Of a DNA stretch of 64,000 nucleotides, positions 7,041 through 64,000 are shown piece by piece. Source of the DNA: Rosa chinensis (Eukaryota > Streptophyta > Magnoliopsida > Rosales > Rosaceae); the NCBI RefSeq assembly GCF_002994745.2, contig NC_037090.1:5453501-5517500 (forward strand), in the 5' to 3' direction. A program made the translations under genes and the position numbers. The notes under the pieces are model-generated. The model did no database searches. It was not told the DNA's origin and saw only the letters and a program-made list of their open reading frames with translations. Position 1 is the first letter of the stretch, and every line of letters starts with the position of its first letter.

Positions 7041-7365
7041 GCTCCTAGCATGATGTTGTTGTGAGAGGCCAGTGTGTCTCTTGACTTCGGCGGGCCGCAG
7101 AAGGTTGGACACCCAGGTTGCTAAAGTTTTTTTTTTTTTTTTTGAGTGGTGCAGCGTTGACCAACCTTGATTGGTTTTGATTGAGCTCAAGTTTTGAGTG
7201 GGTGTTGCTTTGACTTCGTTTTGACTTGAAACCCTGCAACTTTGCAAGCATTGGGAACAAATTTATGTTTGACTTTTTTTTTGTTACCGCCAAAGATGAA
7301 TAGCGGCGAATGTAAGGCTTGATTGAGAATACAAGGCAAGGAAGGCTGAGTGCTTCTAGCGCCAA

Positions 7366-22445: not shown

Positions 22446-23654
22446 ATGGCAGAGTTTTGCAAAATGCCAGAAGAGATGGTGGTGCCAATCCTATCACGGT
22501 TGCTTCCGAAATCTCTAATGCGATTCAAGTGCATCCACAAGTCATGGCATTCTCTGATCAATAGTCCCCAGTTCATATCCAAGCATCTTCACTTTCACAA
22601 CAACTTGTCTTCCTCCACTACCATCCTCTTAAAGCGTCCTGTAATGCGCAGAACCGATACTTTGAATGAGAAGATTGTTTGTTCGTTCCTTAATCTTCAC
22701 AATGCAAATGATGGTGATGAGGATAACCTTCATTATGATATCAAGGACCTCGAATTTCAGCCTTCAATGGGTTTAAATACTAGGGGACAATTTATTGAAA
22801 TACCTAATGAATATTATTATAATTGTGCATATATTATAGGTCAATGTGATGGGATATTTTGTCTAACTCTTTATGCTGCAAAAGACCTTGTTTTGTACAA
22901 TCCAGCAATCAAAGAATTCAAGTTTCTTCCTGAGTCATGCCTTCAAGATAAGAATATAGGTTCTGTGGGATTTGGCTATGATCCCAAGTCTGAAGATTAC
23001 ATACTCGTTAGCGTTGTAAGTTATGGGCATGGGGAGCAATATTACAATGATGATCGTCTCGTTATTGATCCTATGAGAGCAGAAGTTTACACAATGAGTA
23101 CCGATTGTTGGAGAGAGATCAAGATTCACAATCTGGAAACCGAAACTACGTTTTTTTGGCCTAGACATTTCCAAGTGTACTTTAAGGGTAATTGTTACTG
23201 GTTGGCACATGAAAAAAGGAAGGAATTCATCACTTTGTATGACAGACTTGAGGAGTACTACATTTGGGAAGCAATTGTTTGTTTTGACACCGCCAATCGG
23301 ATTTTTCATAATATATTGGTTCCAGATTGCTTGTACGAATTCCCAATGCATGACTTGGACCTTGCAGTATGGCACGATTCCATTGCTCTTTTTGGCTTTT
23401 ATCGCGGTGGAAGTCGACCCTTTGAGATCTGGGTGATGGATAACTTCGATGGTCTCAACTCTTCATGGGTAAAACAGCTATCCGTTGACATTGCGAAATC
23501 TCCTATACCGTTGGCACTTTGGGAAAGGAATAAGATTCTTTTGGTTTTCACACATACACAAATAGCTTTGTACAGCTTTGTAACTGAAACATATCAGTAT
23601 TTACCACTTTATGGTGCGAGTTTTTTCAGGCTTTTCCTTATGTGGATAGTATAG
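22446..23654 (+). CDS. SFBB: F-box protein of the SFBB/SLF type (S-locus F-box-like)
   Basis: Single-exon gene, 402 codons. I chose the ATG at 22446 because MAEFCKMPEEMV is where rosaceous SFBB proteins begin. Residues about 8-48 form the F-box (PEEMVVPILSRLLPKSLMRF, then CIHKSWHSLINS), which binds SKP1 in an SCF ubiquitin ligase. The rest is an F-box-associated (FBA) domain with blocks such as VLYNPAIKEFKFLPES, GFGYDPKSEDY, EVYTMSTDCWREIKI and FEIWVMDNFDGLNSSWVKQL. In apple and pear SFBB proteins, and in SLFs generally, such F-box proteins act in pollen and target non-self S-RNases. A frameshift in a T6 run (23621-23626) replaces the family-like C-terminus; one more T would give FFQAFPYVDSIVPVKR and a stop at 23669-23671 (408 aa). 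It may be functional with an altered tail, or a recent pseudogene. It is convergent with the S-RNase-like gene at 35.2-44.9 kb. Confidence 0.9.
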   Translation: MAEFCKMPEEMVVPILSRLLPKSLMRFKCIHKSWHSLINSPQFISKHLHFHNNLSSSTTILLKRPVMRRTDTLNEKIVCSFLNLHNANDGDEDNLHYDIKDLEFQPSMGLNTRGQFIEIPNEYYYNCAYIIGQCDGIFCLTLYAAKDLVLYNPAIKEFKFLPESCLQDKNIGSVGFGYDPKSEDYILVSVVSYGHGEQYYNDDRLVIDPMRAEVYTMSTDCWREIKIHNLETETTFFWPRHFQVYFKGNCYWLAHEKRKEFITLYDRLEEYYIWEAIVCFDTANRIFHNILVPDCLYEFPMHDLDLAVWHDSIALFGFYRGGSRPFEIWVMDNFDGLNSSWVKQLSVDIAKSPIPLALWERNKILLVFTHTQIALYSFVTETYQYLPLYGASFFRLFLMWIV

Positions 23655-24990: not shown

Positions 24991-25575
24991 CTTCAATGGG
25001 GCAGGACTGAATACTTGTTGCATACAGAGCAATCCATTATAGAAAGACTCACAAAAGAGCCACTTTGCAAGTCCATGATGAGGGCATTCCAACTCAATAT
25101 CCTTGAAACGCTCTCATGCATTATAAAAGTCTCATTATCCTCTTGAAAGAACTTGGTCAAGCATCCCACATCTAAGTGGTCCGATCATGTGGATAGTAGG
25201 CATTCAAGAAGACTCTTTGCATATCAACCCAAGAGAGAATGCATCTTAGTTTAGCCTTATGAAGCCATGTGTGTACTTAATCCTTCAAAGAAAATGGGAA
25301 CAACTGAAGCTTCAATCCCTTCAAAGTTAATCCTCCCAAGTCATCGTCGAACATATGACATCAAACTCAATTATGTGACAATATGGTCTCTTGCTAGCCA
25401 TGCCATGGAAAGTAGGTAGAATAGACAACATTGTAGGCTTGATCTTGAAGTTGACATTTGTCAGAAGAAGCACAGTGTGAGATGGAGCATTTATAATGCT
25501 GGGACATGAATAATGGCTCAATGGAAGCTCCTCCTCATCTTGTGGTACTTGATGAACTTGACCCATGTCACCCAT
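24990..25575 (-). pseudogene. Gag remnant of a gypsy-like retroelement
   Basis: The minus strand encodes a broken gag. LPTFHGMASKRPYCHIIEF lies at 25350-25440, and a further segment (GLKLQLFPFSLKD, then WLHKAKLRCILSW) corresponds to the conserved retrotransposon gag region. Stops and frameshifts are frequent. The upstream LTR remnant at 26.0-26.66 kb has the same orientation. Confidence 0.5.
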
Positions 25576-32258: not shown

Positions 32259-33098
32259 CTAGTAGAAGATGATAAAACCTGGCAATTGATTCCACAATCT
32301 GGCATTAGTTCTGTTGCAACTAATACAAATTCTTTCCTTGTGACCCCATCCTCTACCATTTCCATCTCTATCTCCATTTTTTGCTTCATCACCTCGAGCT
32401 ACCATAGCACTCATATTAGATAAGAGAGGAAAGCTGTCTTTAATTCTTCTTTCTGCAGCAAGTAATTGAGACCTCAAGTCTCGAAGAGAGATAGGTGTTT
32501 CCCTGTCCTCAATCACAGTCCTAACAGTAGAATATTCATCAGAAGGACCATTCAAGATAACAATGATAATATCTTCATCTGGAATAGAGACTCCCACAGA
32601 TAGTAGCTGATCTCTAGCATTCTTGACACGCTGCAGATACTTTTCAATTGTCTCACTTCCCTTGCGAAGTGTTTGTAACTCAGTTTTAAGCTGCATAATG
32701 CTCACTCTTGACACAGCAGAGAAACGTTCTTGAAGAGCAATCCAAGCTTGCCTAGATGTTTTACAACCAATTATCACATCCACAATATCTTCATCCAAAG
32801 TGGCCATTAGCAGACTAAGAAGAGCCATATCGGTTTGCTTCCATGCTTTATATATTGTAGTTTCTTCATTAGTAACTAGACCTTCAGTAGTAAGAGAATA
32901 TCTAGAAAGGGCAACTTCTGAACCATCATAAAATCCAAACAATCCATTTCCAGCAAGAGTAGACTGGAACTGATAACTCCATTTGATTAAGTTTCTGTCT
33001 CCAAGACGCATAGTTATGATACTCAACAAGGAATGAACATGAGAGTGAGACAGACTAGGCGTGGTTACACCTTGAGGGGCCATTTGTAACTTCTGCAA
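32259..33098 (-). pseudogene. Copia gag ORF (UBN2 / gag-polypeptide type), pol lost
   Basis: A 279-codon uninterrupted frame. The likely start is MAPQGVTTPSLSHSHVHSL, six codons in, just after a TTTGCAG. It has the copia gag landmarks NLIKWSYQFQSTLAGNGLFG, QAWIALQERFSAVSR and LKTELQTLRKGSETIEKYL, then DEYSTVRTVIEDRE. The zinc knuckle is decayed: CISCNRTNARLWNQ lacks its second half. Everything downstream, including pol, is gone, and the solo LTR lies 0.2 kb away. Without pol this is a truncated remnant, though the gag frame itself is open. Confidence 0.7.
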
Positions 33099-34285
33099 AT
33101 AATTCTCACCAAGTAAACTTCTATTTGTAGGAGCACACTCAAAGAAATTTCAACAACCTCTTGGAACTGGTAGACAAAGATATTGCTTGGATCAGAATGC
33201 TCAAAATTACTCACAAACGAGAGATTTTCTCAGATTTTACTTTTGGTCACAATTTGCTTAAGTTTTCAAGACAAACACCGCATATCTTGTTGCTCTATTT
33301 TACTCAACTACACAGTTTTGCTCTATTTTTCTCAAATACTTAGAGATTTCAAATAAGAATTGCTCAAGAATTACTCTCTATATGCTCCAAAGTTACTCTG
33401 ATTTACTCTATATACTCCAAATTTACTCCAAAGCTCAAACACATTGAGATTTGCTCAAGAGTTGCACTGTATGTTCCAAGTTTACTCCAGATTTCTTATT
33501 TCTAGTAAAACAAATGATATCGCACAATATTGCTCAAAATCATAAAGCTCATACTTCTGAAGAATAAGAACAAGAGCAAATCACCTGAGGAAGAGAAGTC
33601 CAAGTCACAGCAACTTCAAAAACACACCGAAAAAGCTCACACCAGGCTTCGATGAAGATCAAAGCTTTGAATCCAAGATCCGAAGATGATCAAACCGCAA
33701 ATCACACCAGAAATGAAGCTAGATCTAAACATGCAAAACAGATAATCAATTTAACAAAGATGAGTGCGGAATTCTAAGAAGCACCGATACGGGTAAGCGT
33801 ATCCGGATACGATACGATCGGATACGTGGAAACGGTAAATCTTAAATGTAATTGGATACATGTACGTGAAGGATACGCAAATTAAATATATATATTTATA
33901 AATATATATATATACCCAACCCAGCAGCTGTTATCACACATAATTGACCCACAAATCCATAATCATGACCACTAGCACAACTCCACACTCCCACAGCAAA
34001 TAACAAATATGAGAAGAAGAGCATAACAAATGTACCCGAAGCAGCTAGAAATTGAAGCTCCAAGCGAATCGAAGATGAGGAGAAGTCTCGAGCAGAAAAG
34101 ATTTCGACTTGCGAAGAAGAACAGACGAGCAGAAAAGGTCAGACGAAGCTAGAAGACCAGACGAGCAGTAGAGGAACTCCGAAGCAGCTGAGATTAGGTC
34201 CGAAGCGGAAATGGTCCGACTTGCGAAGAAGACCAAACGAGAATCAAAGGAACTCCGAAGCGACTCTCGATCTGGGTTTGTGATT
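33099..34285 (-). other. Leader/LTR-like region upstream of the copia gag; local repeats
   Basis: No gene. On the minus strand this precedes gag and has a plausible intron donor (CCTCAGGTGATTTG near 33580) and repeated TTACTCTATATACTCC-type phrases. At 33785-33880 GGATACG recurs. At 34070-34265 the phrase GACTTGCGAAGAAGA recurs, with GGAACTCCGAAGC. Confidence 0.4.
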
Positions 34286-34399: not shown

Positions 34400-35215
34400 C
34401 CCAGACATGTGTGAGCTTCTGGGGCTTATGATAAGAGGAAACCTAATCTCAAAACGAATTTGTAATTTTCATGATTATGTAACCATGGTATGGTATAGCT
34501 ATTAATTAATGAAACAAACAAACAGAATAACAAATAAAAAATATTTAATTGGAAATTGTATATAAATATGAATCATTCAACTTGCATGTATGATTAAACA
34601 TGCTTGGCAACAAAAGCGTTGTATGAACAAGGTGTATGGAACAGTAGTGAAAATGGATCATAGATGCAGCACATAGAGGGATCTGAATCGATAAAAATGA
34701 ATAATTGAGGTATTTGACGGAATGTCATCAACTCATCATATAGAACCTTAATTTTAACTCGTAGATTATGAGTTATGGTCAAAAACAACACAGTTGCACT
34801 AAAAACTCATAAATCATCATGGAGTTTATAAGGAAAAAAAATAAATAAATAAGAGCAAACGTGCTGATAACGTGTTATAAAGTATGAAGAAAATGAAGAG
34901 AGAATAGTAGCGAGAAAATAGAAGAGTTCTCATTCAGTCTCATTAGCCTCCTTTAAAATTTAAATAAAGATACGGTTTATATCAAAGTACACAACTAATG
35001 AGTATTTACGTGGATGACCATATAGATAGTAATATTTACAACAATAGATGACGGAGATAATAATATAGATAATAATACCTATAAATGACGGGTATCATAG
35101 ATCATCTTGTTATTCGATATATTATGAATTATAGTTAATTCATTTTATTTTCTTAAAAAAAAAAAAAGGGAGCCTAACCCAAGTTATATATTTTTGACAG
35201 TAAAGCTGAGAAAGC
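34400..35215. other. Region 3' of the S-RNase-like gene
   Basis: AT-rich, no gene. On the minus strand, just after the S-RNase stop, an AATAAA motif (reverse complement near 35150) beside a poly(T)/poly(A) run could be the polyadenylation signal. Confidence 0.4.
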
Positions 35216-38200
35216 CTACAGAATATCGATTGGAAAAGTATCTTGACATGTTGCTTCTGTATCATCACAGTCAATCATATTTTTGGCATGATAGTCCCAG
35301 CAAAGTACCACCTCATGCAACCACTGAGTCCGCTGCGTAGGTTGCGTAGGTTTCTGCGTAGGTTTCTGCTTTGGTTGTTCGCAGCGAAGGAGGGGTGTCT
35401 TTTGAGTTTTTGATCGTACGGCTAATTCTATAACTCCGTAGTCTTTTTGTCTCCCCGATAAGATGCTAGCTCTCTGGAGGATGTCAGTAATATTCTTCCC
35501 CACCCAAATTTCATGGGCTCGATTGAAGTATTGGGTTTGTGTAAATGTCTGCTCCGAACACTTGCCATGCCTGTCCCACTCAAGTGCCCAAAACATTGCA
35601 TCGTTCGGACGTTCTAGGTTGGGCCAAGAGATCTTCAGTTTGGCTTCCAATGGAGGAGCCTGAGCATTCAACCAAAAGACAAATTTTACAAAAATTTCAT
35701 ACATAAAAGATTTGAGTTTTGCTCACCCCACTAAAAAAAAAAAAAAAAAAAGCTCTCCACCTCTTAGAAAAAGCATTTAAATAATGAATGAGTTTTTTTT
35801 TTTTTGAATAAAGGGCCAGACTGCCCTCAAGCCTTGATTAATGAAAATGAGTTTATCTCTTTGTTATTGTATGAGAAATAATTAAAGAGTGCGGCTATTG
35901 TCATCTTACCATTTTTTTTTGTTTACCCTTCTTGCTCATTACACCCTATATTTTGATTTCAATTATTAAATTTACTTACCTGACCCATTTATGTTTCCAA
36001 GAATATCTTTATATAACATATCCAATTAAAAAAGAGATTTTTTTTAACGAAAATCTATTATTTAATTTATACCACTAAAAAAACTAAAAATCTATTAAAA
36101 TTTCCTAATAAAATTATAATCTAATTTACTTCCATTTTTTAAATTTTATCTTTCAGTTTCGCTGTTCGTCTATTTCAATCCATGTCAAAAGATTAGTAAG
36201 TTAACAATAATGAGCAATGAAGAAGAGATTGATTTTTTTTCTTTCGTGTTTTAAAATTTTTCTTTCGGTATTCACAAAGGGTATTAAAAATATGAGAGTT
36301 TCGTTTCTATTGAGGCCTCCAAATCTACTCACTTGACCTCACTCTATTATGAATTATTAAATGACATATATAACCTACTATAAAATGACAATTAAGGACA
36401 ATAATTATACCCAAAAATATTATATTTATTTTATGTAGACTTTCTAATTCAATAATATTAGATTGTATTTCTTATTATTTTCCTTATCTATTTTCATTTT
36501 CCAATTTCACTACATACTCATTAAAACATTCATATATATTTAATAAGAATTAAAAATATGATTAAGATCCTGTGACATAAAAATGTATAATATATATGTT
36601 GAACGCATATTGGTGAGGGAAAACAAAATAAATTCTCTTATGATTTATGATCTAAATCTAAGTCAATAAAATAAAAATAAAAATAAACTAAGAGTTAAAA
36701 TATATATATATTTAAATAATTAATCATGTTGTACAAAAAATACAGAAAAAAAATAAACATTAAAACAAATGATTTTTATTTTGAGAATAAAAACAAGTGA
36801 TTTTTTTTTTTGCACAGCTAAAATAGAAAAAAAAAAACAGGATAGTTCATGGCATTTTCTTATTGATTAGACATTAATTGTTGAAACTCAAGTTTGATTA
36901 AGAAATGTATATTTAGTTAAGATTTATAGAGTGATTAAATCATTGAAATGACTAAATTTTTTTATTTTAAAGATAATAATTTGTTTGCAAATTATATGAG
37001 TGAGGTTATTTGAGGAAGTTTAGCAAGGTTTAGTGAGTAAATTTAGTATTTGAAAATTTGATAAGAGGTGTAAAAAACATAGAGGTCAAGTGAGTAAATT
37101 TGGAGGTTCCAAAAACTCTAAAAATATTTGATGAAGTTAGAACTAATAGTTTTGTGAATTGATTAATGAATTAAACGACGAGTAAACAACAAAAATACTG
37201 AAAAAATAATAATAAACTCAAATTTAGGTGGAGAAGATGATCAAAGGATTTCACTCTTACCCCCATGATTACTCGAACCTATAACCTCGATCTTGGGTAG
37301 TCTTTGTATTTAATTAATTTGTTATGTATTTATTTTCTTACATATTTTGATTTTAGAAAATTAGTATACTTATTAGTCATTTTACACTTAGGTAATATAG
37401 TCTTTCAATAATTTTTGTAAGGTGAACTAAGAAAATGATAAGGTGGCAATAACCGCACCCATAATTAAATGAATGAGTTTCTGTCTTTGCTAGTCCATGC
37501 ATAGTTAACTACGGATTAGCAATATTGCTTTTTTTTTTTTTTAAGAGGTGATCATTTACTTGAATTTTGAAAATAATTAAGAAAGGGTAGTAACATTTAC
37601 CGGATTTTGAAAAGACGATCCCGGACAATTATACACAACAGCTTTAGAATAATTACTCGGCCATAGGCCATGGATGGTGTAAATTTTCTGTTGCAAGGCT
37701 TGGGGTGTGCATTTTCTAACCCTGCAGTGGGCTGGTGGCCATTGTACCACAAATTTAAAATATTCATAGGAACCTGTGGATTATAATTTAAAAGAAATAT
37801 TAAAATTCTTAAATGTGGCGTTGACGCATAAACACTGAGTAGTGTTATAAGAAGTATTTATAACTTTTGACTGGAAACAAGTATTGTGAGCGTATATCAG
37901 TACCCATAGAGCAAAGAATACATCCGGCTCTTTCAATTCAATACAACAAGCTTTAAAGCGCTTGCACGCGCCCTACACCCAGAGTCTGGTTTTTGTGCAA
38001 TTGCTCTCGTCAGGTGGCGCACGACGCCGGGGCGAGCCATCGGCTTTTCCCTCGTGTCGTGGTCTGCTGCCGGACGGGTGGTTTTTTCAATAAGGGGCTC
38101 AGGGCGGTCTGTTGCTACTTGAAGTCTGGCAGGGTGGGCTTTGACGACAGATCTGGTGCAAAACCTCTGAAGCAAGGTGGTCGGGTTTTTAATTCTGGGG

Positions 38201-41200
38201 ATGTCAATGGCAACTTGGGAGGGACTGGATTTCGATCCGCTTCGTTTCCAAGCGGCGACGCCGACGTCTGGGGGCGACATCGATCTGGAATCTGGGTGGA
38301 CTTAAATCATTTTGGTTCTAGTTTTCTTTGATATCAGTGTGTGGGGCTCGTGGGTGATCGGAGTTGTTTTGTTGGAGGCATCTGGGATTGAAAACGACGT
38401 GGCCATGGAGGCGCCGGTGCGGCATCAACGTGGTCGTGGTTATCGCCGCCATGCGAAGGAGATGAAGCATTGGGCCGGGTCTGGGCCTTTTGCTAGGGTT
38501 TGAGTGGGACTACTCTTTGGGCTGCTGTCAATTGGGCCTGAGTGACTTAGGTCTAGGGTGAGCCCTAGGCCTACCATTTGAGCTCCTATTTAGTTAGTTT
38601 TTTCTTTCTAAATAATTTCCTTTTTGTAGGAGGCTATGCACTCTTGTGTTAGTTTGATGCCTATTTACTGTGGTTTGTTTCATAGTTTATAGGCTTTATT
38701 GAATAAGTGAGCATGGGTACCGTCAAATCATCGGACCTAATCTATGTATCGATGTGGTTTTTCCACAAAAACTCTTTATCTACCCAGAGATGGTAGAGGG
38801 AGGATATGTAATGGTCCTTTCTGGCTTGAGTATTAATATATATCGGCATGATATTCTTCAAAAAAAGTATTGTAAGCGTATTGGTTTTTTTTGTTTTTTT
38901 TTTTTTTAAATTTCCGCGACTATAAATAAGAAGAATAAAAAAAATAATACAAACGGTAACAATTGGTTTGATGGATTCTCTCTTTGGTAGGCTCTCCCTA
39001 GGGTTTCTAGGCAGCGTCTCTGCTAAATGGTTTTGGATTGGCCTACGACTTCTCTAGGCCCCCCTAGAGGGTGGTGGAGGCTTTGTTCGGCATTTTCTAG
39101 CATGGGTGTTGTCTACTTTAGAGGGTGGTGAGCAACTCCAACAAGTTCCCCATATTTTGAATTTTCACTACTTTTGAGGAAAATGAGTCTCTTTTCCTCC
39201 AACAGATTCCCTATAACTATCTCTATTTTAGAGAAAGTGAGAAAAGAGAAAACCAAATTCCTTATATTTACAGCAATCTCTAAAATTTTAATGAAGAATA
39301 TGAAGATTTTAGAGATTGCTGTAAAATAAGGAATCTGTTGGAGTTAGAGAAGAAAAAGACACTAAAGATTTGACTTTTGCTTCCCTATTATACAGAAATT
39401 ATAGGGAAGTTATTGGAATTGCTCTTAGTTTCTTTTGCATGTCTCTCCATGGGGAAGCTGTGAACAAAATCTCGGTATCAATTCGGGAATTTAATTGTGG
39501 GACTTTCCCAGTACGGGGACGAGTAGGTGGTGGCGCACCTCATGGGTCAGGGCTACTTTGGAAAGATCAAAATTTTACCTGACAGGCGTTGTCGTGTAAT
39601 CTCTATTGATTCATGGGCAAGTGTCGACGCGAGTTTGAAGTAGGGTTTCTAGGCTTGGGTTTGGGGATTTTTCCTCAACCTATTAGGCCTAGCCTTTGGG
39701 CTGTGCTGGTTATGAAGGTTAGTTTGGATCTTCTTAGGCATGTCTTTAAGGCTTGGGCCTCTATTAATAGTGTGGTCTATAATGAATCTGGAAAGGCCCC
39801 CTCTGCGTAGGGAGGTCTCGGGTTTATAGAATAAGTTGGGGCTGCCCTTTGCCTTAACATTAGGTCACCGAAGGTTTCCAAAGAGGTCGTTGAGATCTTA
39901 TAGGTCGCCGGAGACTTTTACTAGCCCCTAATAAAACTCAATAATTTTTACTAGGGGCCAATAAAAGTCTATTGGTTTTTTTTTTTTTTTTTTTTTTTTT
40001 GCGGGGGCGGGGGGAGGGGGGATTAAGGTTGAATTAATTTGATTAAAGTCTAAAAGCTAGACCCTATATTGATTGTAGTCCGCATCAATTTTTCTTGTTA
40101 AATGCAGTCCAATGAATCAGCTGCCACCTCTGATTTATTTCCTTTTCCATTTTGCTTACTCAAACTTCATTAATTTTTCTTTTTTACATGACTAATATGC
40201 CCTTATTGAATGTTTTTACACATAAAATGTAATAGGATTAAAATTAGCAATCTGATTACTAATTTAATATCATATTTGATGTATGTCTTTCTTAAATTAT
40301 TTTTATTAATCCGGCATAAAAATTATGGAATTGATATGACATTGAATATCATATTCTATGTAAATCATTCCTAAAATTATTCTAATTTAAAAGATGTTTT
40401 CTATAAGTTAGGAATCTTTCTAAAGCAAATTTTGGATAATGTTTCTCTTCTTCAACACTAAAGCTTCTATGGTTATGGCTCATGTATGTGACATCATGTT
40501 TTTTATGAATGTGGTTCTCCTTCTTTAACATTAAGCTTTCTATGGTCAAGCTATTTTCTTGTTAGCCCCATACGATTGTGATCCTTTTGGTGTTTGATTT
40601 TCTTTTTCTTCCATCCATGGATGGTAGCTATTCTTTGATCTTCTTCTTCTTATGCTTCATTTTTTTTAAAATTTTTAAATTTTTTATATTCCTTCTTAAC
40701 TTACCTTTAGGCCTAGAAACGTATATTTTAGGTTGATAAACCACTATTGTAACCTTATTCTGAGGTAGACATTGCACAGTTTTTGTGGTAGATGCATTAA
40801 GAGCTAAAAAATTCAGCATTTTAGTATACCTATATAGGTAGTTTTTCTCACCATATGTATCTCGATTATTTATACCTACAATAGAAGAAAACTAAAAATC
40901 ATCAATTGGCTACATTAGGACCTAAAAATTGAACGATCGAGATATAGATATGCGATCGAAAAGTAAGTCTATTCAGATAAATCTTTAGATTTTAAAATCT
41001 AAAGAGGTCCTTAGCATAAAAGGACTGTGTGTGTATTAAGGGAGTGAAATCCACACTCCCTTTACTTTTTATTCCAAAAATACCCATTCTTAGTCCTTTA
41101 TCTCTCTCTTTAATTGCCGATGTCCTTAAGAATTCGGTTCTGCCATTGGTAACAAAGAAGTTGGGCAAGACTCATGCCCAAGTGCTTGGTAGTATTGGTA

Positions 41201-44200
41201 CTTATCATAGTTAGATTATGAATGAGACCCATTTCCCCATTACCCACATAAAACATTACAACGGATACCCATTTCCTCATTACTATTAAGAATCGATAGA
41301 AACAAAGAAAAATGAATGCAATGGATTTCATCGAGTCACTCGATCCTCAGATTCATGTGGGTGTTTCTTCTGTTGTTTTTGCCAGGAAATGTATGGCATG
41401 ATGTTTGATTAGGGATTCATGATCAATATGATAAGTTAATTAAATTTTAGCGGCCGTGGTCAATCACTTTCATATACTCCTTTATTTTCTTCCACTCCGA
41501 GAATTGCAAAGAACAAGATACATATCAGAGAAACTCTTAGGTAGGGACTGTCCTATCACGTGGCGGTAAGACAGCTCAATCAAAATTAAGAAAGAACTTT
41601 ATGTATTTCAAAATTATATCTCTTTTAATAAATCAAGATATCCAAAACACCCCCTGCAAAATCCTTATTGGGCAGCCCTACTACTACGTGGTACGATTGT
41701 CCTACCTAAGAATCTCTCTACATATGATGGAGGACACAAGATATAAAGTTGGATTCTTGAGAGTTCCGTAATTAAAAAGGATTGAAGATGATATGGGAAG
41801 AGAGAGAAGATGATAGAGAAAGAGGAGTTCTAGTTACTTTATATGACACTTCACGTATTGAGTGGCAAGGAAATATAAGAAGATGGTAGGAGTAATTTGG
41901 AAAATTCAATGAACAAAACAGAAAGGATTTCACTCCTCTATATTAGATTTTTATAGAGGAATTGAAAATAAATTTTTATTTACTTATGTGGCATGACACC
42001 TAGGATTTGAGGCCACAAATCTTAGGCCTCATTGAGGCCCTATATCATTGCCCGATAAGGAAAATTATTTGTGGCCTCAATGAGGCCTAAAATTTGTGGC
42101 CTCAATCTTAGGTGTCATGTCATGTCATCTACACAAATCACCTATTTGTCAAATCATGCCATGTCATTATTGAGAAAAAGACCATCTTATCCTTCAAAAA
42201 TCTAATGACTCTAAATTATTTTGGCTTTCTTCTAAAAAAAAAAATTGGCTTTCTTTCATTTTTTTTTTCATTACACTCATGCTTAGATTTAAACAACAAT
42301 TTTTTTTTCTTCAATCAAGAGTAGAAAAAATTTCATGTAACTCAGTTAATAGATTTGCACGTACATTCGATTAATAGATTTGTATAACACATGTATATGA
42401 ATTCAACCTTTGTTAAGTTCCTGCAAATTTTGAAAATATAAGGTGAAAAATACATATTCATATGATTGTATTTATTCTTTTGTTCATTGTTTTCTCTTTA
42501 TGTAGCTAGGGTTTAAACGTTAAATCTGAATTTATTATTTTTTGTTTGTCTTTCCCTTATATTTAGATTGTAAATGTTAATTAATGGCTGCTACCGTGTA
42601 ATTTTTCCATACCTCTTAATTTAGACATAAGTATTTCTCAAATTCAATTAACTAATGCTATATTTTTGTGGATGAAATTAATCAATATTTGGAAAGAAAA
42701 GTTAACGTCTATTTCTTGACACATAATTCAATATATTAATGCCATTTGGGAAGAAAAATTAAAGGAAATAATTTAATTAAATGAAGAAAAATATTGATCA
42801 AAGAATCTGTAGACATATCTCTTAAATTGATATATAATTAATAGCTGATATTTTTTTTTGTCATCTAATTAAATTCATTAATGAAATTGATTCACCCCCT
42901 AATTAACATCTACAAGGAAATGTAGAAGGGTAAAGTTGGTGTTGAAATAGTATGATGTGGCAAAATATATTATATGGAATTGAAAATAAATTTTTATTTA
43001 CTTATGTGGCATGACACCTAGGATTTGAGGCCACAAATCTTAGGCCTCATTGAGGCCCTATATCATTGCCCTATTAGATAATTACCAATTAAAGCTAAGT
43101 TAAGCGAAGAAATTAGCCCACTCGTTTTTTGCGCCTTTTTTCGGCCTAATACTGAATTGGGCTTAGACAGGAGTAAAACACTTATTAGATTATATGAATA
43201 TCTTTAGCATCTTTTTTTGGTCTACAAAATTTTCAGTTTACTCTTATTGTTTAATTTAGAAAATATTTAGCTTAATCTTTTAAACTTTTATTTGAAAAAT
43301 CATCGGCCCAATTATTTTATAATATTTGTTTTATTGTAGGTTTTTTAGTTTATAGACTTCATTCCGGAAAATTCCTGTGAAGAAAAAAAAATTTGAATGC
43401 ACATTATGGTATGAGGGCCAATTTTTAAGGTTTGTCTTTCGTATGAAATTATCAGTTCCCGAGCTCGGGCTGATGAGTCCATTATTTATGCAATTGCTTT
43501 ATGCTCTTGCAGCAAACAGGATGCAATCTTTCTCCATGGAAAAATTTTGGAAAACAACACCATGATTTCTCTAGTTGGTGGGAGGAAGCAGCAAGCATCA
43601 TGTTAAAAAATGAAATGGAGTTGTTTGCTTACATCTATTCATCTATTGATACCTGTGGAACGAAAGAAACAATCTCCTACATAATTTGAGAAATTCGAAG
43701 CAGCCTGTCTTTATTTTTGCTCAAGTACATGCAATCCCTTCCTAATGAGTACCAAGCTGATAGCCTGATAATGTAACTGCTAATCACAGGGTCTGGACAT
43801 AAATTGCAAATGGGAAATCTCCCGCGAGTGGCGTTTATAAGCTAAATGTGGATGGAGCCCTAGATCTTTCTAATAACAGAAAGGGTTTGGGGGAGGTCAT
43901 TCGAAACGATCATAGCCAACTTATGGGAGATTTTGCTTTACTTTCCCCATTGGCAACTGGACCCATGGTTTTAAAGGCTGGGATTAGATTTGCAATGGAC
44001 GCGCGTGCGTCTTTTTATTTTGGAAATCGAACCACGAGGTTGTGAGATTAGTTAACTCTTCTGAGCCTTAGTGGGAAGAAGGAGCTTTTGTAAAAGATAT
44101 TAAAGTGATTCTAAGAGATTGTGGCGCTCTTAAGGTTTGCTTCCAACTTAGAGAATTCAACAGGGTACCTCATGAAATAACTAGATTGTCGGGGAGTCGT

Positions 44201-44887
44201 GGTCTGCTGATTAACGAGCTTAACTAATACTGTGAAGGTTATGAGTTTAAATCTCAGTACCTCACTGACATTAGGAGTGGGGTTGAGAGAAGGTTTGCTC
44301 ACTTAAGGGACTGTGAGAGACAAATGAATCTAATGACTGAAAATAAATGCACAGTTTTAAGTTGTTATAATTTCTATTTTTATATTTAATACATGTGGTT
44401 GAGATGCATTTATCTCTCATATTCCCTTAAAACTGTCCCTTAGGTGAGCAAATCTAAGATTGTGAGCAAATCTAAGATTGAGAGTTACATTGTAGTCCAG
44501 AATTTAAAATAATAATAATAATAATAACAATAATAATAATAATTAAATAACTAGATTCATTATTGTATTGAATCCATGCTAAATTGGTTCATGCAGTCGG
44601 TAAATATCGACAACATTCCTTATAAGTTCTAATCCTTCTAATTGATTATTGAATAATTATTCCTTTCATATAAAAATAAAAAACTTAAATAACCATTTGC
44701 AGAAACAAGTATAAAAACTCAAACTTCCTGAATGCAATGGTGTTTTTTTTTTTTTTTTTTTGAGAAGAAGGGTTACAAGTTAACTGTATACATATACCGT
44801 AGAACACAGAAACCCACCAATGCTCATAGTGAAACAGAGAGCAAAAGCAAGAGCAATTAAAGCGAACGATGATTTCAACATTGCCAT
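35216..44887 (-). CDS. S-RNase: S-RNase-like T2 ribonuclease, three exons, complete
   Basis: Exons: 44818-44887 (signal peptide), 37601-37773 and 35216-35659; introns are 7044 and 1941 bp with GT/AG borders. The joined frame is open for 228 residues, the usual S-RNase length. Residues 1-24 are a secretory signal (MAMLKSSFALIALAFALCF). Family blocks: C1 FKFVVQWPP (29-37), C2 IYTIHGLWPSN (54-64) with catalytic His58, C3 FWALEWDRHGKCS (104-116) with Glu108 and His112, C5 HEVVLC (196-201). Mature cysteines are 40, 45, 73, 115, 174, 201, 212 and 219; N-glycosylation sites are Asn64 and Asn137. Charge is net positive (25 K/R versus 20 D/E), as for S-RNases and unlike most other T2 RNases. Intron 1 falls at the mature N-terminus and intron 2 in the hypervariable region, the Prunus arrangement. 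The protein would be secreted in the style to degrade RNA of self pollen tubes. Residues 178-193 hold an unusual Lys-Pro-Thr-Gln repeat. Expression is untested; a non-S T2 paralogue is the alternative. Confidence 0.93.
35790..35850 (-). mobile_element. Very short LINE 3' end
   Basis: Poly(T) followed by GAATAAAGGGCCAGACTGCC, the reverse of a LINE-type tail. Near-matching AATGAATGAG and AATGAAAATGAG flank it. It lies in intron 2 of the S-RNase-like gene. Confidence 0.4.
35887..37460. mobile_element. MULE-type MITE in S-RNase intron 2 (1.57 kb)
   Basis: Terminal inverted repeats GAGTGCGGCTATTG and CAATAACCGCACCC, with a perfect 9 bp TSD ATAATTAAA (35878-35886, 37461-37469), typical of Mutator-like elements. 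It contains a nested second MULE MITE. A relative is at 59896-60700. It makes up most of intron 2 and has no coding. Confidence 0.85.
36294..37118. mobile_element. Nested MULE MITE, 825 bp
   Basis: Ends GAGAGTTTCGTTTCTATTGA and, at the right, GGAGGTTCCAAAAACTC, with inner pairing over CCTCCAAATCTACTCACTTG. A perfect 9 bp TSD TAAAAATAT lies at 36285-36293 and 37119-37127. It sits inside the older MITE at 35887-37460. Confidence 0.85.
37896..38864 (+). mobile_element. LINE-derived non-autonomous retroposon in S-RNase intron 1
   Basis: A 0.97 kb insertion ending in a short A-run (about 38860-38866), bounded by 17 bp repeats AAGTATTGTGAGCGTAT (37879-37895) and AAGTATTGTAAGCGTAT (38865-38881), which differ at one base. 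The GC-rich first half (to 38500) keeps frames open on both strands but matches no protein I know. The 3' part resembles plant LINE tails (GGTCCTTTCTGGCTTGAG). No reverse transcriptase remains. Confidence 0.7.
38882..39129. other. Intron 1 segment, T-run then GC-richer sequence
   Basis: Part of S-RNase intron 1. CTCCCTAGGGTTTCTAGGC resembles plant LINE 5' leaders, so this may be another retroposon fragment. Confidence 0.3.
39130..39424. mobile_element. Tourist-like fold-back element, 295 bp
   Basis: GAGCAACTCCAACA at the left pairs with TTGGAATTGCTC at the right. Strong internal pairing around 39300 (CAGCAATCTCTAAAAT with ATTTTAGAGATTGCTG) makes a long hairpin. The target duplication is not preserved. 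Confidence 0.65.
39425..41955. other. S-RNase intron 1, no gene
   Basis: Short unrecognised frames only. A T-run followed by a G-rich tract (GCGGGGGCGGGGGGAGGGGG) lies at 39977-40021. 39440-39830 is somewhat GC-richer and retroposon-like; the rest is AT-rich. Confidence 0.35.
41955..43075. repeat. Repeated block in direct and inverted copies
   Basis: The phrase GAATTGAAAATAAATTTTTA followed by CATGACACCTAGGATTTGAGGCC and AGGCCTCATTGAGGCCC occurs at 41951-42053 and 42976-43072. An inverted version (GGCCTCAATGAGGCCTAAAA) lies at 42075-42120. 42054-43072 therefore looks like a MITE of about 1 kb next to a partial copy of its own end. Located in S-RNase intron 1. Confidence 0.6.
43377..44620 (+). 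pseudogene. LINE RNase H-domain remnant, split by a SINE
   Basis: Plus-strand frames hold the RNase H-like domain found at the end of plant LINE ORF2: YKLNVDGALDLSNN, GLGEVIRNDHSQLMGDF and, further on, LREFNRVPHEIT, with stops and shifts between. The coding trace is cut at 44187 and resumes after 44557. It lies within S-RNase intron 1, opposite in strand. Confidence 0.65.
44188..44544 (+). mobile_element. SINE-like element with 13 bp TSD
   Basis: A perfect 13 bp TSD AAATAACTAGATT flanks it (44175-44187, 44545-44557). The head (GTCGTGGTCTGCTGATTAAC, then GAGTTTAAATCTC as a B-box-like motif) resembles a tRNA-derived promoter, and the tail is (AAT)n-rich. Its middle (about 44296-44455) has inverted ends TTTGCTCACTTAAGGGAC and GTCCCTTAGGTGAGCAAA, so a small MITE may be nested in it. 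Confidence 0.6.
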
Positions 44888-44948: not shown

Positions 44949-44956
44949 TTTATATA
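44949..44956 (-). promoter_or_regulatory. TATA box of the S-RNase-like gene
   Basis: The reverse strand reads TTCTATATAAACAGCAC; the TATATAAA core is 62-69 bp upstream of the start codon, so a 5' UTR of about 30 nt is expected. Intact promoter geometry supports an active gene. Confidence 0.7.
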
Positions 44957-45455: not shown

Positions 45456-48400
45456 GTCCGGTGGTCTGGCATTGTTTTGGAGTGATGGCGTTGATGTTAG
45501 GTTTCGGTCAAAGTCGCATCATCACATTGATGTTTAAGTCTGGGAAAGAGATGGTTCTGGGATTGCTTGGAGACTATCAGGTTTCTATGGACATTCGACA
45601 ACCAGTGAGCGTAACGGGACTTGGACGCTCCTTCATGAGCTATCTGTGCAATCTGCGCTTCCATGGATTGTGGTGGGTGATTTTAATGAAGTTCTGCATG
45701 CGTCAGAGAAAGATGGGGGCTGTGTATGTCGTGAAGGGCAGATGCAACAGTTTAGAGATGTTCTTGCCTTCTGCGATTTATTTGATCTGGGTTTCTCTGG
45801 CTCAGCCTTTACCTGGAGTAGGGCTGGCATTAGATGCGGCTAGATAGGGCAGTGGGGACGACGTCTTGGACAGATATATTCCCATCTGCTCGGGTTTCCA
45901 ATCTAAAACCTATTTATGGGGACCATGTTCCCATCCTTTTGGGAGTGCATCGGTCTCCCCTAGCCACTGTTCAGCGTCGGCGAAAGTGTTTCTGTTTTGA
46001 GAGCTTCTAGGTAAGGCATGAAGCTTGTGTAGAGGTAGTGAAATCTGGTTGGGTGTGTGAGCCACGGAACCAACCTATGTTACAAGTTTCTCAGAAGATT
46101 ATGCATATGCGTTTCGCCCTTAATGATTGGCAGAAAAATACTTTTGGATGTAGACGCAAGGAGATTGAGTTCTTGCGTGGCAGACTCTAGGTTCTTCTTG
46201 ATTTACCTGCTTCAGAATCTAACCAACAAGAGAGTCTGTCTTTGTCCTCAAAATTGGATGGTCTGCTTGCACAAGAGCATGATTACTAGAAGCAAAGGGC
46301 GAAGATTACTTGGCTAGCTGAAGGTGATCGTTATACTAAGTTTTTCCACAGGAAGGCATCCAATTGACGAGCAAAAAATCGTTTGCTTGGGCTCTTTGAT
46401 AACCAGGGGGTATGGCAGTATTGAGGCTATGGTTATGGATTATTTTAGTTCGATGTTTAGGGCAGGGGAGGTTGATTTGTCTCATATGCAACCTGTAGTG
46501 GCACTGGTTCAGCCTAAGGTCACACCGGAAATGAACTCCATGCTCTGTGCTCCTTACACGGCTACTGAAATTAGAGTTGCTCTCTTTCAGATGTATCCCA
46601 CCAAGGCTCCTAGATCGGATGGGATGCCTCCTTTATTTTTTCAGCGATATTGGGATACTATTGGATCTGATGTTGTGGGTGTAGTTCAGAGCTTTCTCCA
46701 TTCTGGTCAGTTACTTTCTTCGATTAATTACACACATGTTTGTCTTATTCCAAAGGTTAAAAACCCTACATGCATGTCAGATTTGCGTTCCATCGCTCTG
46801 TGTAATGTCATATATAAGATTTGCTCTTAGGTGATCGCTAATAGATTGAAGGGTATCCTCTCCCAGATTAGTTCTTCTTTTCAGAGTGCTTTTATTCCTG
46901 GGCGTTTAATATCTGACAATAATCTTATTGCTAATGAGGTTTCTCATTTAATTCATAATAACCGTTCCAGTTCTGATGGAGTGATGTCTCTTAAGCTTGA
47001 TATGAGTAAGGCTTATGATCTCATGGAGTGGGTTTTCTTGGAGGCAGTCTTATTTCGGTTGGGGTTTGATGAGTCCTGGATACATGTCATTATGCAGTGT
47101 GTGAAGTCTGTGCGTTATTCTTTTTTGATTAATGGGCAGCCTCGTGGCTACTTGGCACCTACCAGAGGTTTAAGGCAAGGTGACCCGTTATCACCATACC
47201 TTTTCCTGCTTTGTACTTAAGTGTTTTCAGCTCTATTGGAGCATAAGGCTACTTAGGGGCAACTTCAAGGGGTTCAGATTTATTCAGGGGCTCCTACTAT
47301 CCTCCACCTTTTATTTGCAGATGATAGCCTTCTGTTTGGCAAGGCTAATTTAGAGGAATGTTCTCATATTCAGGATGTCTTGTTGGATTATGAGTTAGCT
47401 TCGGGCCAGAAAGTTAATTTCTCTAAAAGCAGTATAGTCTTTAGTAAGAAGGTGTGCCCTTCTTTGCAACAGCTGATTGCAGGTTCACTTGGTGTGATTA
47501 TTGTGGACAAACATGACAAATATCTGGGTCTACCTACTTATTTGGGGAGAAATAAAACTGGTCTTTTGCTTACATTCAGGAGCGTTTGAACAAGAAGCTT
47601 GAGGGTTGGCAAGGCAAACTTCTGAGCAGTGCAGGGAAGGATCTTCTTATAAGGGTAGTTGCTCAGTCCCTTCCTTCATATACTATGAGTTGCTTCCTAT
47701 TACCTAAGCTTTTCTGTGATTCACTACATTAGAAGTGTGCTAAGTTCTGGTGGGGCAGTAAAGGTGAGAATCGGAAAACTCATTGGTTGTCTTTGGACTG
47801 ATTATGCCAACCCAAATAGGCTGGTGAAATGGGTTTTCGGGATTTGCATGCATATAATTTGGCTCTTTTGTCAAAGCAGGGTTGGAGGTTAATTCATAAT
47901 CCGGGTTCTCTTTTGGCTCGATTATATCAAGCTAGGTATTTCCCTAATGGTGACTTCTGGTCTAGTGAGCTTTCTTCATCACCTTCTGCATGCTGGAGGG
48001 GTATACATGCAGCAAAACATATTTTGAGGAGGGGTGTCCGCTGGCAGGTAGGGAATGGGCAGTCAGTAGGGATTTGGGAGGATCCATGGATTCCAAGACC
48101 CTCTACTTTTCTTTCTATTATTCGTCATGTGGATGGCCCAGAGACGGTTGCAGATTTGTTACTTCCAGGTTTTACTTGGAATCAGGTCCTTATTAATCAG
48201 TATTTTGCACCTGAGGATGTGGATTTGATTCTTTCTATGTCTCGTAGTCAACGTGATGTACCCGATCGTCTTATTTGGCATTATGATAAGAGGGGAAGAT
48301 TCTCTACTAAAAGCGCTTATGCTTTGGCTTTTAGTGAGCTTCGTGATAGTGGGGTAGCTACTTCTAATCCAGTTAATATTTCTTCTTTTTTGAAGCAGAT

Positions 48401-49350
48401 TTGGTTTGCTCAAATTTCTGGTAAGGTTAAAGTTCATTGGTGGAAAGTTTGCTCTTCTATCCTTCCTACAGCTGCTAAGCTACACACTAGACAAGTCTTA
48501 GTCCATGATGGTTGTTGGTTTTGCAATGATCAGGATGAATCTATTAATCATATTACGAGGGATTGTCAGTTTGTAAAGGATCTGCTTTCTTTCTTCCTTG
48601 AGTTGCATGGTGTCCTACATATTGATTGCAATGAAGGTACGTCAATTGTTACTTGGTTGGCATCTTGTTTTGACGTTCTCTCTAAAAAGAATGTGGCCCT
48701 TTTACTGTTTGTTGGATGGTTTGTATGGAAGAAGCGTAATCTGAGAGTGTGGTTAAATAAATTCGTTTCTCTGACCCACTTGCAGTATCAGATCAGATCC
48801 TCCTTTATGTTGTTTCAGTCTCATTTGGTTACTACTCAGAGTACTTCTAGAGTGATTAGGCCAGGGGTCCCCGCCTTCTTCCGGCTGGCTAAAGGCCAAT
48901 TGTGATGGTGCTTTTGATTTGTTATCTAAATCTGGTGGGATAGGAGTGGTAATATGTGATGCATTGGGTGATATTGTTGGCGGTGCATGCATCAAGGTTA
49001 ATTCGGTTGCCTCTCCTGAAGCTATAGAAGCCATGGCTTGCAGGGCTGCTTGCTCCCTAGCAGTACAGTAGCATCTTTCTCCAATTATTTTTTAGATAGA
49101 TTGTCAGCACTTAGTCTCTTCTGTTGAGTCTGGGGGTGAAGAAACCTCACCCTTGGACCGTGTTATTGAGGATATCAACTCCTTTCTACAGGTGCTAGTT
49201 AGATCTTCTTTGAGGCATGTATACCGAGCAACCAATACAGCTGCCCATAACTTAGCTAAACTTGCTCTACTTTCTTCTTTCAATTTATCTTGGAGTGGGC
49301 ATGTCCCTCCAGTTATTAGAAGCTTTATTGCTTCCTATGGAACCCATTGA
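45456..49350 (+). pseudogene. LINE ORF2 (endonuclease, reverse transcriptase, RNase H), broken
   Basis: The reading frame is interrupted. In-frame TAG at 46828-46830 follows NVIYKICS and the frame resumes at once with VIANRLKGILSQ. There is a stop at 47218-47220 and another in the following stretch, and a frameshift at about 48870-48890 just before RNase H (WLKANCDGAFDLLSK). The RT catalytic motif is present as FADDS near 47313. The longest intact piece, 47829-48905, holds the zf-RVT domain (HDGCWFCNDQDESINHITRDC). RNase H ends near YRATNTAAHNLAKLALLSS. No active protein is expected. Confidence 0.85.
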
Positions 49351-59412: not shown

Positions 59413-59895
59413 AGTGTAAATTGCAGGAAAGATAAAGTACGGAAGGTAAAGAAAGCGATAAAAATTAAAGTAGGCTAGAGAGAGAATGAAAAGATTGATA
59501 TTGCAGAGAATTTGATGTATTGATTTTGAGTTGTGTTGGTCGGGGACCTTTTACAATGACCTAGGAGGGTTGTATTTATACAATCACATACATAAGGTTT
59601 AGGAAATAAATTACAATTAAATTGAATTGAATGAATTTCGATCTTAATGACCAAAATTAAGATATGCTCCATATTACTTCATTCCTTAATCATACTATTA
59701 CTACTTCCTTCTTACGGCGCCATTATATTTGATTTGTTTTAATTTCTGCAATATTGTCTTCAATGCCTTGAAACTTAATAAAATCTCGTCATTAATTATA
59801 TCAACAAATAATTACCGCCGTTATTTCTTTCCATTATAATTTCTTCTCCTAAAGTTGATACCTAATAAAATCTCATAAAATGAAATTTTATTGAG

Positions 59896-60700
59896 GGGTG
59901 CAGCTATTGCCACCCTACCATTTTCTTTGTTCACCCAACAAATATTTGAATTATTGAAAGACTACATTACCCAAATGCAAAATGACTACTAAGTAAACTA
60001 ATTTTCTAAAATTTAAATCTTTAAGGAAAAATAAATACATAACTAATTAAATACAAAACTACATTTTTTTTTTTGAGTAATCAAGCCAGTAGGGCGAATA
60101 TATATTCATCACAAGCCAAAATAGGCCATTACATAAAATTAAATACAAAACTACTTAATTTCTCTTCTGATAACAATAATCTTCATCTTCTCCATCCAAA
60201 TTTCAATTTATTACAATTTTCTTTTTTCTTTTTTTTGTTCCGTGCTCATTGTTAATTCGTTATTCAGTTCACAAAATCATTAGTTTTAACTTCATCAAAA
60301 TCTTTATAATACCTTTATAAACATCAAAAGTAAAAACTTTAAAACACGAAGACAAAATCAATCTTTTTTTCATTACTCATAGTAGCACTTACTAATTTTT
60401 TTAATATGAATTGAAATAAACGAACATTGAAACTGAATGGAAAAAATAAAAAAATGGAAGTAAATCAAATTATGATTTTATTAGGAAACTTTAATATATT
60501 TTAGGATGTCTTTTTAATTGATATAAATGAAATGAGAAATTTTCGTTAAACAAAATTTCTTTTTTATTTTGATATGTCATATGATGAAGGATATTATTGG
60601 AAAGAGTAATGGGTTGGATAAGTAAATCTAATAATAAAAATTAAAATGTAGGGTTTAATGAACAAGTAGGGTGAACAAAGAAAATTATAGGGCCTCACCC
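59896..60700. mobile_element. MULE-type MITE, 805 bp
   Basis: Left end GGGTGCAGCTATTGCCACCC and right end GGGTGAACAAAG through GGCCTCACCC pair as inverted repeats. A perfect 9 bp TSD TTTATTGAG lies at 59887-59895 and 60701-60709. Same family as the MITE in S-RNase intron 2 (35887-37460). Confidence 0.85.
60063..60136 (-). mobile_element. 74 bp LINE 3' fragment with 18 bp TSD
   Basis: A T-run then AGTAATCAAGCCAGTAGGGC up to CAAAATAGGCCATTACAT. The perfect 18 bp TSD AATTAAATACAAAACTAC lies at 60045-60062 and 60137-60154. Severe 5' truncation of a LINE related to the element at 49528-50340 (both share ATAGGCC.TTACAT). Nested in the MULE MITE. Confidence 0.75.
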
Positions 60701-61148: not shown

Positions 61149-64000
61149 CTCTCCCTCAAATTAGGGCATAAACATCTCGAAGATCCAACTTGCCCAGTGA
61201 GTCATAGAACAACTTGCTAGATACCGCTTTGGTAAGTATATCTGCTAATTGATCTTCAGTCGGAACAAAAGGAAACTTGATCAACTTCGCATCCAACTTC
61301 TCCTTAATGAAGTGTTGATCAACTTCCACATCCTTTGTTTGATATGTTGCACAGGATTCTAAGAGATTTCAATGGCGGTTTGATTGTCACAAAATAGCTG
61401 CATAGTAGACTTGATTTTAATGCCCACTCTCGCCGCAACAATTTGCGAAGCCACAAGAGCTCACATACTCCATGTGCCATACATTCTCCAAGTGACAAGG
61501 TTACCTCCCATAAAGATGAAGCAACCAGATGTAGACTTTCTGTCAGTGATACAACCAACCAATCTGTGTCTGTGTAACCACTAACATCAAGGTGTTGATG
61601 TTAGAGAACATTAATCTTTTTCCATGTGCTGACTTCAGATACCTTGAAATTCTTACTACGGCATCCATGTGCCTTTCACTTAGATTATGCATAAACTGAC
61701 TCAGAATACTAACTGCTTAAACAACATCAGGTCTAGTGTGTGATAAGTAAATTAGACGTCCCATTAACATTTGGTATCAAGGTTTATCAGTTGAAACCTC
61801 ATTAGGATATTCTGCCAGTTTGTAAGTTTGCTCAATCGGAGTATCAATTGGACAACAGTTGAACATGTCTGTTTCTTCCAAGAGTTCAAGTACGTACTTC
61901 CTTTGACATAGGAACATGCCATCTCTCTGCCTGGCTACCACAATCCCTAAAAAAAATTTCAAGTTACCCAAATTCTTCAATTTTGATGTCAACTTCTTCT
62001 CAAGGCTTCCAATTTTTATCAAAGCATCCCCTGTAGTAACCATATCATCCACATATATGATGAGTACAGTTACCTTCCCCTTTTGGTGTTGGTGTGATTT
62101 TAATTGCTTTGCTTATAACCAAAGCGTCTCATGGACTAAGTGAATCTGCCTAACCACGCTTGGGGAGACTGTTTGAGCCCATAAAAGGACTTCTTCAATC
62201 TACACACAACATTACAAGGTGTGTTAGGTACATAACCAGGAGGTAAGTTCATGTACACTTCTTCATTAAGTTCTCCATAAAGGAAAGCATTCTTGACATC
62301 AAACTGATGAAGAGGCAAATTCAGTTTTGCTGCAAGAGACAACAATACTCGAACAATGTTCATCTTAGCTACTGGAGTAAAAGTCTTACCATAGTCTATC
62401 CCAAATGTCTGAGTGAACCCCTTAGCCACCAACCTTGCCTTATATATGCTTATAGTGTCATCTGCATTATGTTTCACAGTGCTTCTTCCTACGTGGGAGT
62501 GGGACCAGTTCCCATGTGTGATTCTTCTCTAATGCCTCCGTCTCTTCCTCCATTGCCTTGGCCCATTTTGGGTCTTCCATGGCTTCCTGCATTTTGTTAG
62601 GCATAGATACAGATATTTGATACAAAAATGAGGCATAAGGTTTGGACAACCTATGGTGTGACACAAATTTAGCAACTGGATACTTGGCTTTAGCGGTTAT
62701 GGAAGGCTCATATTTTTAGCTAGTTTACCACGAGTAGTTCTACTAGCTAACATATATGTAGAAAAGACTGACTCTATAGGATTACTAGGAGTAGCTACTG
62801 AACATACTTGAGTTGAAACTTCTTAAACTGGGAGTTCAGCAATAGTGGTTGAAGTATTAAACGAGGGAACAACCTCAGTAGAATCTTCTTCTGCTCCAAA
62901 ATTCGTCTATTAGAAATTATCCTTCGACTGGTCCTGATCCACTAATTCTCAACTAGTCAAAATTTTTGTTCAACCAGTCAAGTACCTCTCGGCTTGCTGA
63001 TTTTCCTCAATTCGACTAGTTGAATTTCCTTTGGTTCCAATATTTTCGACTTCATTTTGAGGTCTTTTTTCTGCCTCCAAAGGTTGTAGAATCCCTTCCT
63101 TGACCGTGAATGGCTCTTCTTGTTGCATCCCAGTAGTTTCCTCTGAGTCTTCAATCTTTTTCAATCCTCTACCAATAAAAATCTCTTCGTAAAAGTCATT
63201 CTCCCCCTGAAGAGATCGAAGTGTTGGTGGGGGCGAAATAGCACATGTCTTCATAGAATGATACATCCATAGTGATGTAGAACTTCCATGTGGGAGGATG
63301 ATAACACTTGTAGCCTTTTTGATGAGGGCCATAACCTATAAATACACGCACTTGAAAGCCCGGACATCCAACTTTGATCTCTGATTTTTTGGTATGTGAA
63401 CAAAAGGAACACAGCCAAAGACACGAGCATGAAGATTTTGAAGGGATGGATGAGGACATGGGTTGACAAGACTTAAAATAGAATACGCTCTTGAAGAACA
63501 CTAGAAAGAAGACGGTTGATAAGATGGGATACTGTTGGAACTGCCTCACCCCACAGATACTTGGGCATATGAGCACCAAATAATAATGCTCGAGCTATGT
63601 CTAAGAGATGACGATTTTTATGCTCAGTCACACCATTTTGCTCTGGTGTTTGGGGACAAGTGGTTTGATGAATTTATGCCTTGTTCTTGAAAAAGTTTTT
63701 GAAAATCATGATTGACAAACTCCCCTCTATTATCAAAACAAAAAACCTTGATAAGACCAATGAATTGTGTTTGAATCATTTTCTAAAAGGCTTGAAATGC
63801 AAAAAACATAGCATCCTTGGATTTAAGCAATGCAACCCAAGACAATCTAGTACAATCATTAATAAGAGAACAAAATATCGCATTTCAGACATAGTAGGTT
63901 TTCTGGAAGACCCCTACACATCAGAGTAAATAATTTCAAAAGGAATGTAACTTTTATTAGAAAGACTCAATGGATAACTAACTTTATGGCTTTTTGCCAA
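61149..64000 (-). pseudogene. Copia polyprotein, 3' part (integrase end, RT, RNase H), decayed
   Basis: From 64000 downward the minus strand encodes copia pol with stops and shifts: integrase core trace (near 63950-63600), an integrase C-terminal segment (near 63400, VRAFKC, then HPPTWKFYITMDVSFYEDM), RT (SIYKARLVAKGFTQTFGIDY at about 62440; NAFLYGELNEEVYMNLPPGY at about 62270), the intact catalytic YVDDM at about 62050, and RNase H ending near 61170 just before the 3' LTR. The 5' half lies beyond the window. Orientation matches the gag remnant at 32.3 kb but they are separate insertions. Confidence 0.85.

Follow-up and report, generated by a model that had tools for sequence, protein, structure and literature searches.

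The SC1 S-RNase gene of Rosa chinensis: three exons across two introns and an arginine in place of the active-site lysine

The 64,000-nt stretch of the Rosa chinensis genome analyzed here (the window, C3:5453501-5517500) contains three exons on its minus strand, between positions 35216 and 44887, that almost certainly make up the SC1 S-RNase gene at the rose S-locus, its product being the style determinant in a non-self recognition system with SLF proteins. The structure of the gene, its family and lineage, the F-box cluster beside it, and its agreement with a published place in the genome are established below, while the fold of the protein is a prediction. Pistil expression and the rejection of SC1 pollen come from the published literature. 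All coordinates are those of the window unless a chromosome is named.

Exon 1 (44818..44887, 70 nt) carries the start codon and a putative signal-peptide stretch. Exon 2 (37601..37773, 173 nt) encodes blocks C1 and C2, including His58 (codon 37670-37672), and exon 3 (35216..35659, 444 nt) encodes block C3 with His112, block C5, and the stop. Joined, the three read in frame for 687 nt, giving 228 codons and a stop with no inner stops, just as the preliminary description of this DNA had proposed. Canonical GT..AG borders flank both introns: intron 1 (37774..44817, 7044 nt) runs from GTGGGT to CACAG, and intron 2 (35660..37600, 1941 nt) runs from GTAAAT to CTCAG, interrupting, after residue 81, the variable region that separates C2 from C3. 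On the same strand, a candidate TATA box, TATATAA (44950..44956), begins 69 nt ahead of the start codon, and a candidate polyadenylation signal, AATAAA (35144..35149), lies about 66 nt after the stop. The size of the introns is not a novelty, since Fragaria S-RNase introns of about 8 to 15 kb have been published (PMC8325692) and the rose SC2 gene spans 23,783 bp (PMC9527601).

The shortest part of the gene, exon 1, is the one most open to doubt. It resembles the leader sequence of S-RNases from Fragaria and Prunus: when the exon 1 peptides of six relatives (two Fragaria and four Prunus) were searched by tblastn against the whole window, all six matched best at 44887..44816 (E values of 5e-9 to 4e-5), and the runner-up of each had an E value of 0.073 or worse. 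Four of four full-length relatives recovered all three exons in order; for the two Prunus queries, the exon 1 match is weak on its own (E values of 0.002 and 0.005). Searches with SC1 and with the neighboring F-box gene SLF2 (described below) revealed no second T2 copy and no F-box relic in the window, nothing else scoring better than an E value of 0.48.

The introns hold some repeats, those in intron 1 being short ones only. At 41958-42122 and 42976-43084 there is a palindromic stretch, along with a direct repeat of 102 nt whose copies are 98% alike and lie about 1 kb from each other; this is perhaps a small mobile element. Pieces of intron 2 (37119-37469) recur inverted at 59887-60306, 22 kb off, with 79 to 82% identity; this is probably an old dispersed repeat.

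Is this gene new? The preliminary description treated it as hidden, and in that respect it was mistaken. Given the place of the window on the chromosome, 35216..44887 corresponds to Chr3:5,488,716..5,498,387, and Table 2 of Kawamura 2022 (PMC9527601) gives SC1_SRNase (Chr3g0455911m) as running from 5,498,387 to 5,488,716, a span of 9672 bp. The comparison is one of end points, and both are equal to the base. We found no difference from this published SC1 S-RNase of the cultivar 'Old Blush'. Agreement with the 'Old Blush' assembly of that paper is judged from the coordinates of SC1_SRNase and SC1_SLF2, from eleven further F-box places that read as in print, and from an identical Rosa chinensis database protein (P0001). 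The gene had first been recognized as a rose S-RNase by Vieira 2021 (PMC7881130), who placed it in the Prunus lineage and described two introns and positively selected sites. PMC9527601 equates the names, Rc3D_SC1 (Chr3g0455911m) being the Rchinensis1_3-Rchinensis2_27 of PMC7881130. The gene is thus already known, and exon 1 is absent only from that database protein of Rosa chinensis, P0001 (206 amino acids), which is identical to the SC1 S-RNase from residue 24 on, after its first Met. P0001 begins MGSYEYF, without the exon for the putative signal peptide 7 kb upstream, and as annotated it would therefore not be secreted. The modified model published in 2022 has the same end points as ours and mends this absence. 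What is left over is the incomplete P0001, an arginine at position 111, and a 12-nt duplication in a loop of the protein.

The published record also bears on function. PMC9527601 lists an FPKM (fragments per kilobase per million mapped reads) of 100 in pistil and 0 in stamen for SC1_SRNase, and PMC7881130 describes the gene as highly expressed in pistil and ovary. Published crosses between roses sharing SC1 gave 111 seeds on SC1 styles, 0 of them from SC1 pollen (the SC1 row pools several plants), and the gene has been mapped in print to the rose S-locus. The expression and the crosses support the suggestion, made earlier from the DNA alone, that the gene is a self-incompatibility determinant.

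The protein itself is ordinary for its kind, apart from the arginine. It matches the Pfam profile Ribonuclease_T2 (PF00445) over positions 1-188 of 188, with an E value of 2.4e-30. His58, within HGLW, and His112 align with the catalytic histidines of the T2 family, and Glu108 is retained with them. Of its nine cysteines, eight follow the putative signal stretch (40, 45, 73, 115, 174, 201, 212, and 219), so the count of two histidines and eight mature cysteines offered at the outset was correct. For comparison with Prunus S-RNases, 66 aligned rows were used (P0004-P0041 and P0045-P0072), leaving out the paralogues P0083 and P0090 (34% identity); each of the eight SC1 cysteines is a cysteine in 54 to 66 of these 66 rows. 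Class III S-RNases are described in the literature as basic, with an isoelectric point (pI) of 8 to 10, at most two introns, the second of which lies in the hypervariable region, and no amino acid pattern 4. The SC1 S-RNase has a pI of 8.74 from residue 24 on, which is within that range, two introns with the second placed as described above, and 0 matches of the published pattern 4; PMC7881130 notes that the rose gene keeps pattern 2. The 12-nt tandem duplication (35343..35369, 2.2 copies, minus strand) encodes QKPTQKPTQ in the loop before block C5. This loop, between Cys174 and Leu195, has 20 residues in SC1, compared to 12 in Fragaria Sa and 10 in Sb. As a novelty it was rejected: the Prunus loop is often rich in Lys, Gln, Pro, and Ser and spans 8 to 29 residues in the 66 rows, so the rose loop is within the known range.

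Where does the protein sit among its relatives? A protein search with the 228-residue product, one of the checks that had been suggested, returned 44 proteins, with the Fragaria viridis Sa-RNase matching over 100% of the query (E value of 3.2e-87). Besides P0001, the closest relatives among the matches listed are the F. viridis Sa- and Sb-RNases (63% identity over the full length, with the same exon order, two introns, and, in print, large introns as in SC1 [PMC8325692]) and the Prunus S-RNases (45 to 53%). As far as sequence comparison goes, chance resemblance is ruled out by the T2 profile, the Fragaria match, and the identical P0001. A second search, with a four-row alignment, gave 902 proteins, of which the best 120 were aligned, and a tree of 47 rows was built from 41 of these 120, the rose protein, and five exon stretches from the same genome. 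In this tree, rose SC1 stands with Fragaria Sa and Sb (support of 100/100), and these three stand with 15 Prunus S-RNases (92/86), at a distance from most of the non-S T2 rows. Another 12 rows from Rosaceae group separately (91/83), the Rosa rugosa MC-like a protein adjoins the SC1/Prunus group, and Pyrus S32, the sole Maleae S-RNase in the tree, stands apart on a long branch. The S-RNase call of the preliminary description therefore holds on the profile, the relatives, the tree, and the published gene at the same coordinates; the outcome that was to refute it, a phylogeny placing the protein with non-S T2 RNases, did not occur.

The SC1 S-RNase is also predicted to fold as a T2 RNase. An AlphaFold2 model built on P0001 with an 88-row alignment reached a pLDDT (predicted local distance difference test) of 93.2 and a pTM (predicted template modeling score) of 0.89. 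Foldseek returned 19 PDB chains with E values of ≤0.001, every one RNase T2-type; RNase MC1 came first, the Nicotiana SF11 S-RNase sixth, and the pear S3 S-RNase eighth.

The neighborhood of the gene speaks to the type of recognition. SLF2, an intact one-exon F-box gene of 402 amino acids (22446..23654, plus strand) with F-box and FBA_1 domains, occupies the place of the published SC1_SLF2 (5,475,946-5,477,154 in PMC9527601). Among its 60 matches, the best are from Rosa sericea (92% identity) and Fragaria vesca (86%); apple and pear proteins named SFBB or SLF are included, and no SFB appears among the names shown. The analysis covered 13 published F-box places of the SC1 haplotype: SLF2, which lies in the window, and 12 outside it. 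Eleven of the 13 are intact open reading frames (ORFs), and the other two are broken by 15 and 17 stops, as published. An F-box domain was detected at an E value of ≤0.001 in 10 of the 11 intact genes; SLF10 shows FBA_3 only. The 55 pairwise identities of the 11 range from 31.7 to 63.6%, with a mean of 39.3%. A well conserved neighbor together with many divergent F-box copies fits non-self recognition better than one co-evolving SFB, and non-self recognition is what PMC7881130 and PMC9527601 conclude for rose. The Maleae S-locus is similar in print, with one S-RNase and many F-box (SFBB) genes, the Maleae S-RNase being of another lineage than SC1. The Prunus S-locus, in contrast, is described as a self-recognition system with one SFB. 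The initial likening of this gene to Prunus S-RNases is thus right for the RNase itself, in lineage and in its two introns, and wrong for the system, in which SLF2 is SLF/SFBB-like and the F-box genes are many. As a side observation, one Rosa chinensis F-box protein in the databases (P0152, 642 residues) is named as having an RNA ligase/cyclic phosphodiesterase domain too and is possibly a merged gene model.

As mentioned, one residue departs from the usual S-RNase. In block C3, His112 is immediately preceded by Arg111 (codon AGG, 35570..35572, minus strand), which aligns with K118 of Prunus avium S1, the active-site lysine. Position 111 is lysine in 66 of the 66 Prunus rows (the excluded paralogue P0090 has arginine), and over all 121 aligned rows, which count one protein twice (as P0001 and as the query), there are 103 lysines, 6 arginines, and 12 other residues. 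Fragaria Sa has arginine like SC1, Fragaria Sb has lysine, and the unnamed close relative P0042 has glycine. The lysine may stabilize the reaction intermediate (PMC6969032), and the positive charge given by lysine elsewhere is predicted to come from Arg111 in SC1. According to PMC12033343, the lysine is conserved in all S-RNases, and a K to T change in two Gillenia genes, one of them its favored S-RNase candidate, may alter activity; departures at this site are hence not unheard of. A literature search, with subscription journals and supplements mostly outside its reach, found no report of Arg111 in rose, and the word "lysine" occurs 0 times in PMC9527601, PMC7881130, and PMC8325692. Since the lysine is not a defining S-RNase feature, Arg111 does not exclude membership. 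It is possible, though rather doubtful, that rose and strawberry S-RNases have relaxed or rebuilt the catalytic lysine (arginine in SC1 and Sa, glycine in P0042) while still rejecting pollen.

Several points weigh against reading SC1 as an active style determinant in a non-self system. Three non-S sequences (Argentina MC-like, Rosa rugosa MC-like b, and L003, a copy from the same genome) fall inside the SC1/Prunus group of the tree on long branches, and the Prunus S-RNase rows are not one clean group (they form one in 33% of bootstrap trees). PMC7881130 has pattern 1 violated at its first position in the rose gene and reports low expression in stamen. The active-site lysine is replaced. The non-self model for rose has been argued from expression, divergence, and selection, with no report found, in the text available, of a single SLF acting, and PMC12033343 argues for an ancestral self-recognition system in Rosaceae. 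Could SC1 be a T2 RNase of the S lineage that plays no part in self-incompatibility? SRNase26, 30, and 36, put forward in 2018 as the rose S-RNases, are RNases of that kind. T2 paralogues are common (59 profile matches in the genome, counted exon by exon), some are expressed in pistils (PMC7881130), and, as noted, a few non-S rows lie near SC1. Yet the pairing with Fragaria Sa and Sb at full support, the basic pI, the two introns, and the absence of pattern 4 all speak for an S-RNase, as does the published mapping to the S-locus, and published half-compatible crosses refute this alternative unless a tightly linked gene is responsible. We rejected it on the tree, pI, intron number, lack of pattern 4, and crosses, and consider it extremely improbable.

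The lineage of the RNase and the ancestor favored by PMC12033343 could instead suggest a Prunus-type self-recognition system, with SC1 as its pistil gene and a single SFB on the pollen side. Against this, the F-box gene closest to SC1 shares 86% identity with a Fragaria vesca protein, compared to 63% between the SC1 and Fragaria S-RNases, and 11 intact, divergent F-box genes lie beside SC1. According to PMC7881130, moreover, the SFB-like gene of rose is located elsewhere, shows expression in every tissue tested, and has little variation. With the F-box evidence at the locus and that published gene in hand, this candidate was also discarded, as highly improbable. Might Arg111 weaken the RNase, so that SC1 blocks self pollen chiefly by another route? 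The invariant lysine of the Prunus rows and the statements of PMC12033343 on its conservation and on K to T lend themselves to the idea. However, arginine retains the charge, the Fragaria Sa-RNase likewise has arginine, Glu108 and both catalytic histidines are kept, and the published rejection is complete (0/111), so that arginine is presumably good enough. A weakened RNase is accordingly judged quite unlikely.

How would the SC1 S-RNase of a non-self system act? By analogy, it would likely be secreted, enter pollen tubes from the style, and degrade RNA there, and a pollen SLF F-box protein recognizing it would tag it for destruction. Such an SLF is presumably present in pollen of other types. 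SC1 pollen is presumably stopped because its own SLFs (SLF2 and ten further intact F-box genes) include none that recognizes the SC1 S-RNase. Secretion, uptake, RNA cleavage, and SLF-driven removal are all modeled here on the known systems.

A few other features were found in the window. The plant small nucleolar RNA snoR71 (Rfam RF00097, 48.5 bits) lies at 25070-25179 on the plus strand, and a stretch of a UAA-family nucleotide-sugar transporter (Pfam E value of 9.7e-21) lies at 17791-18159, also on the plus strand. Retroelement pieces include a copia-type gag (32259-33149, minus strand), an RVT_2 reverse transcriptase (62136-62528, minus strand), and RVT_1 with zf-RVT (46831-48905, plus strand). 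A degenerate tandem array at 6434-7045 (plus strand) produces long open frames in which an amino acid motif recurs and is probably not a gene.

Overall, which roses can be crossed is determined by the S-locus, to which the repeat-flowering gene KSN is linked. The natural Lys-to-Arg change in SC1 provides, in addition, a convenient way of testing which residues of the active site an S-RNase requires.

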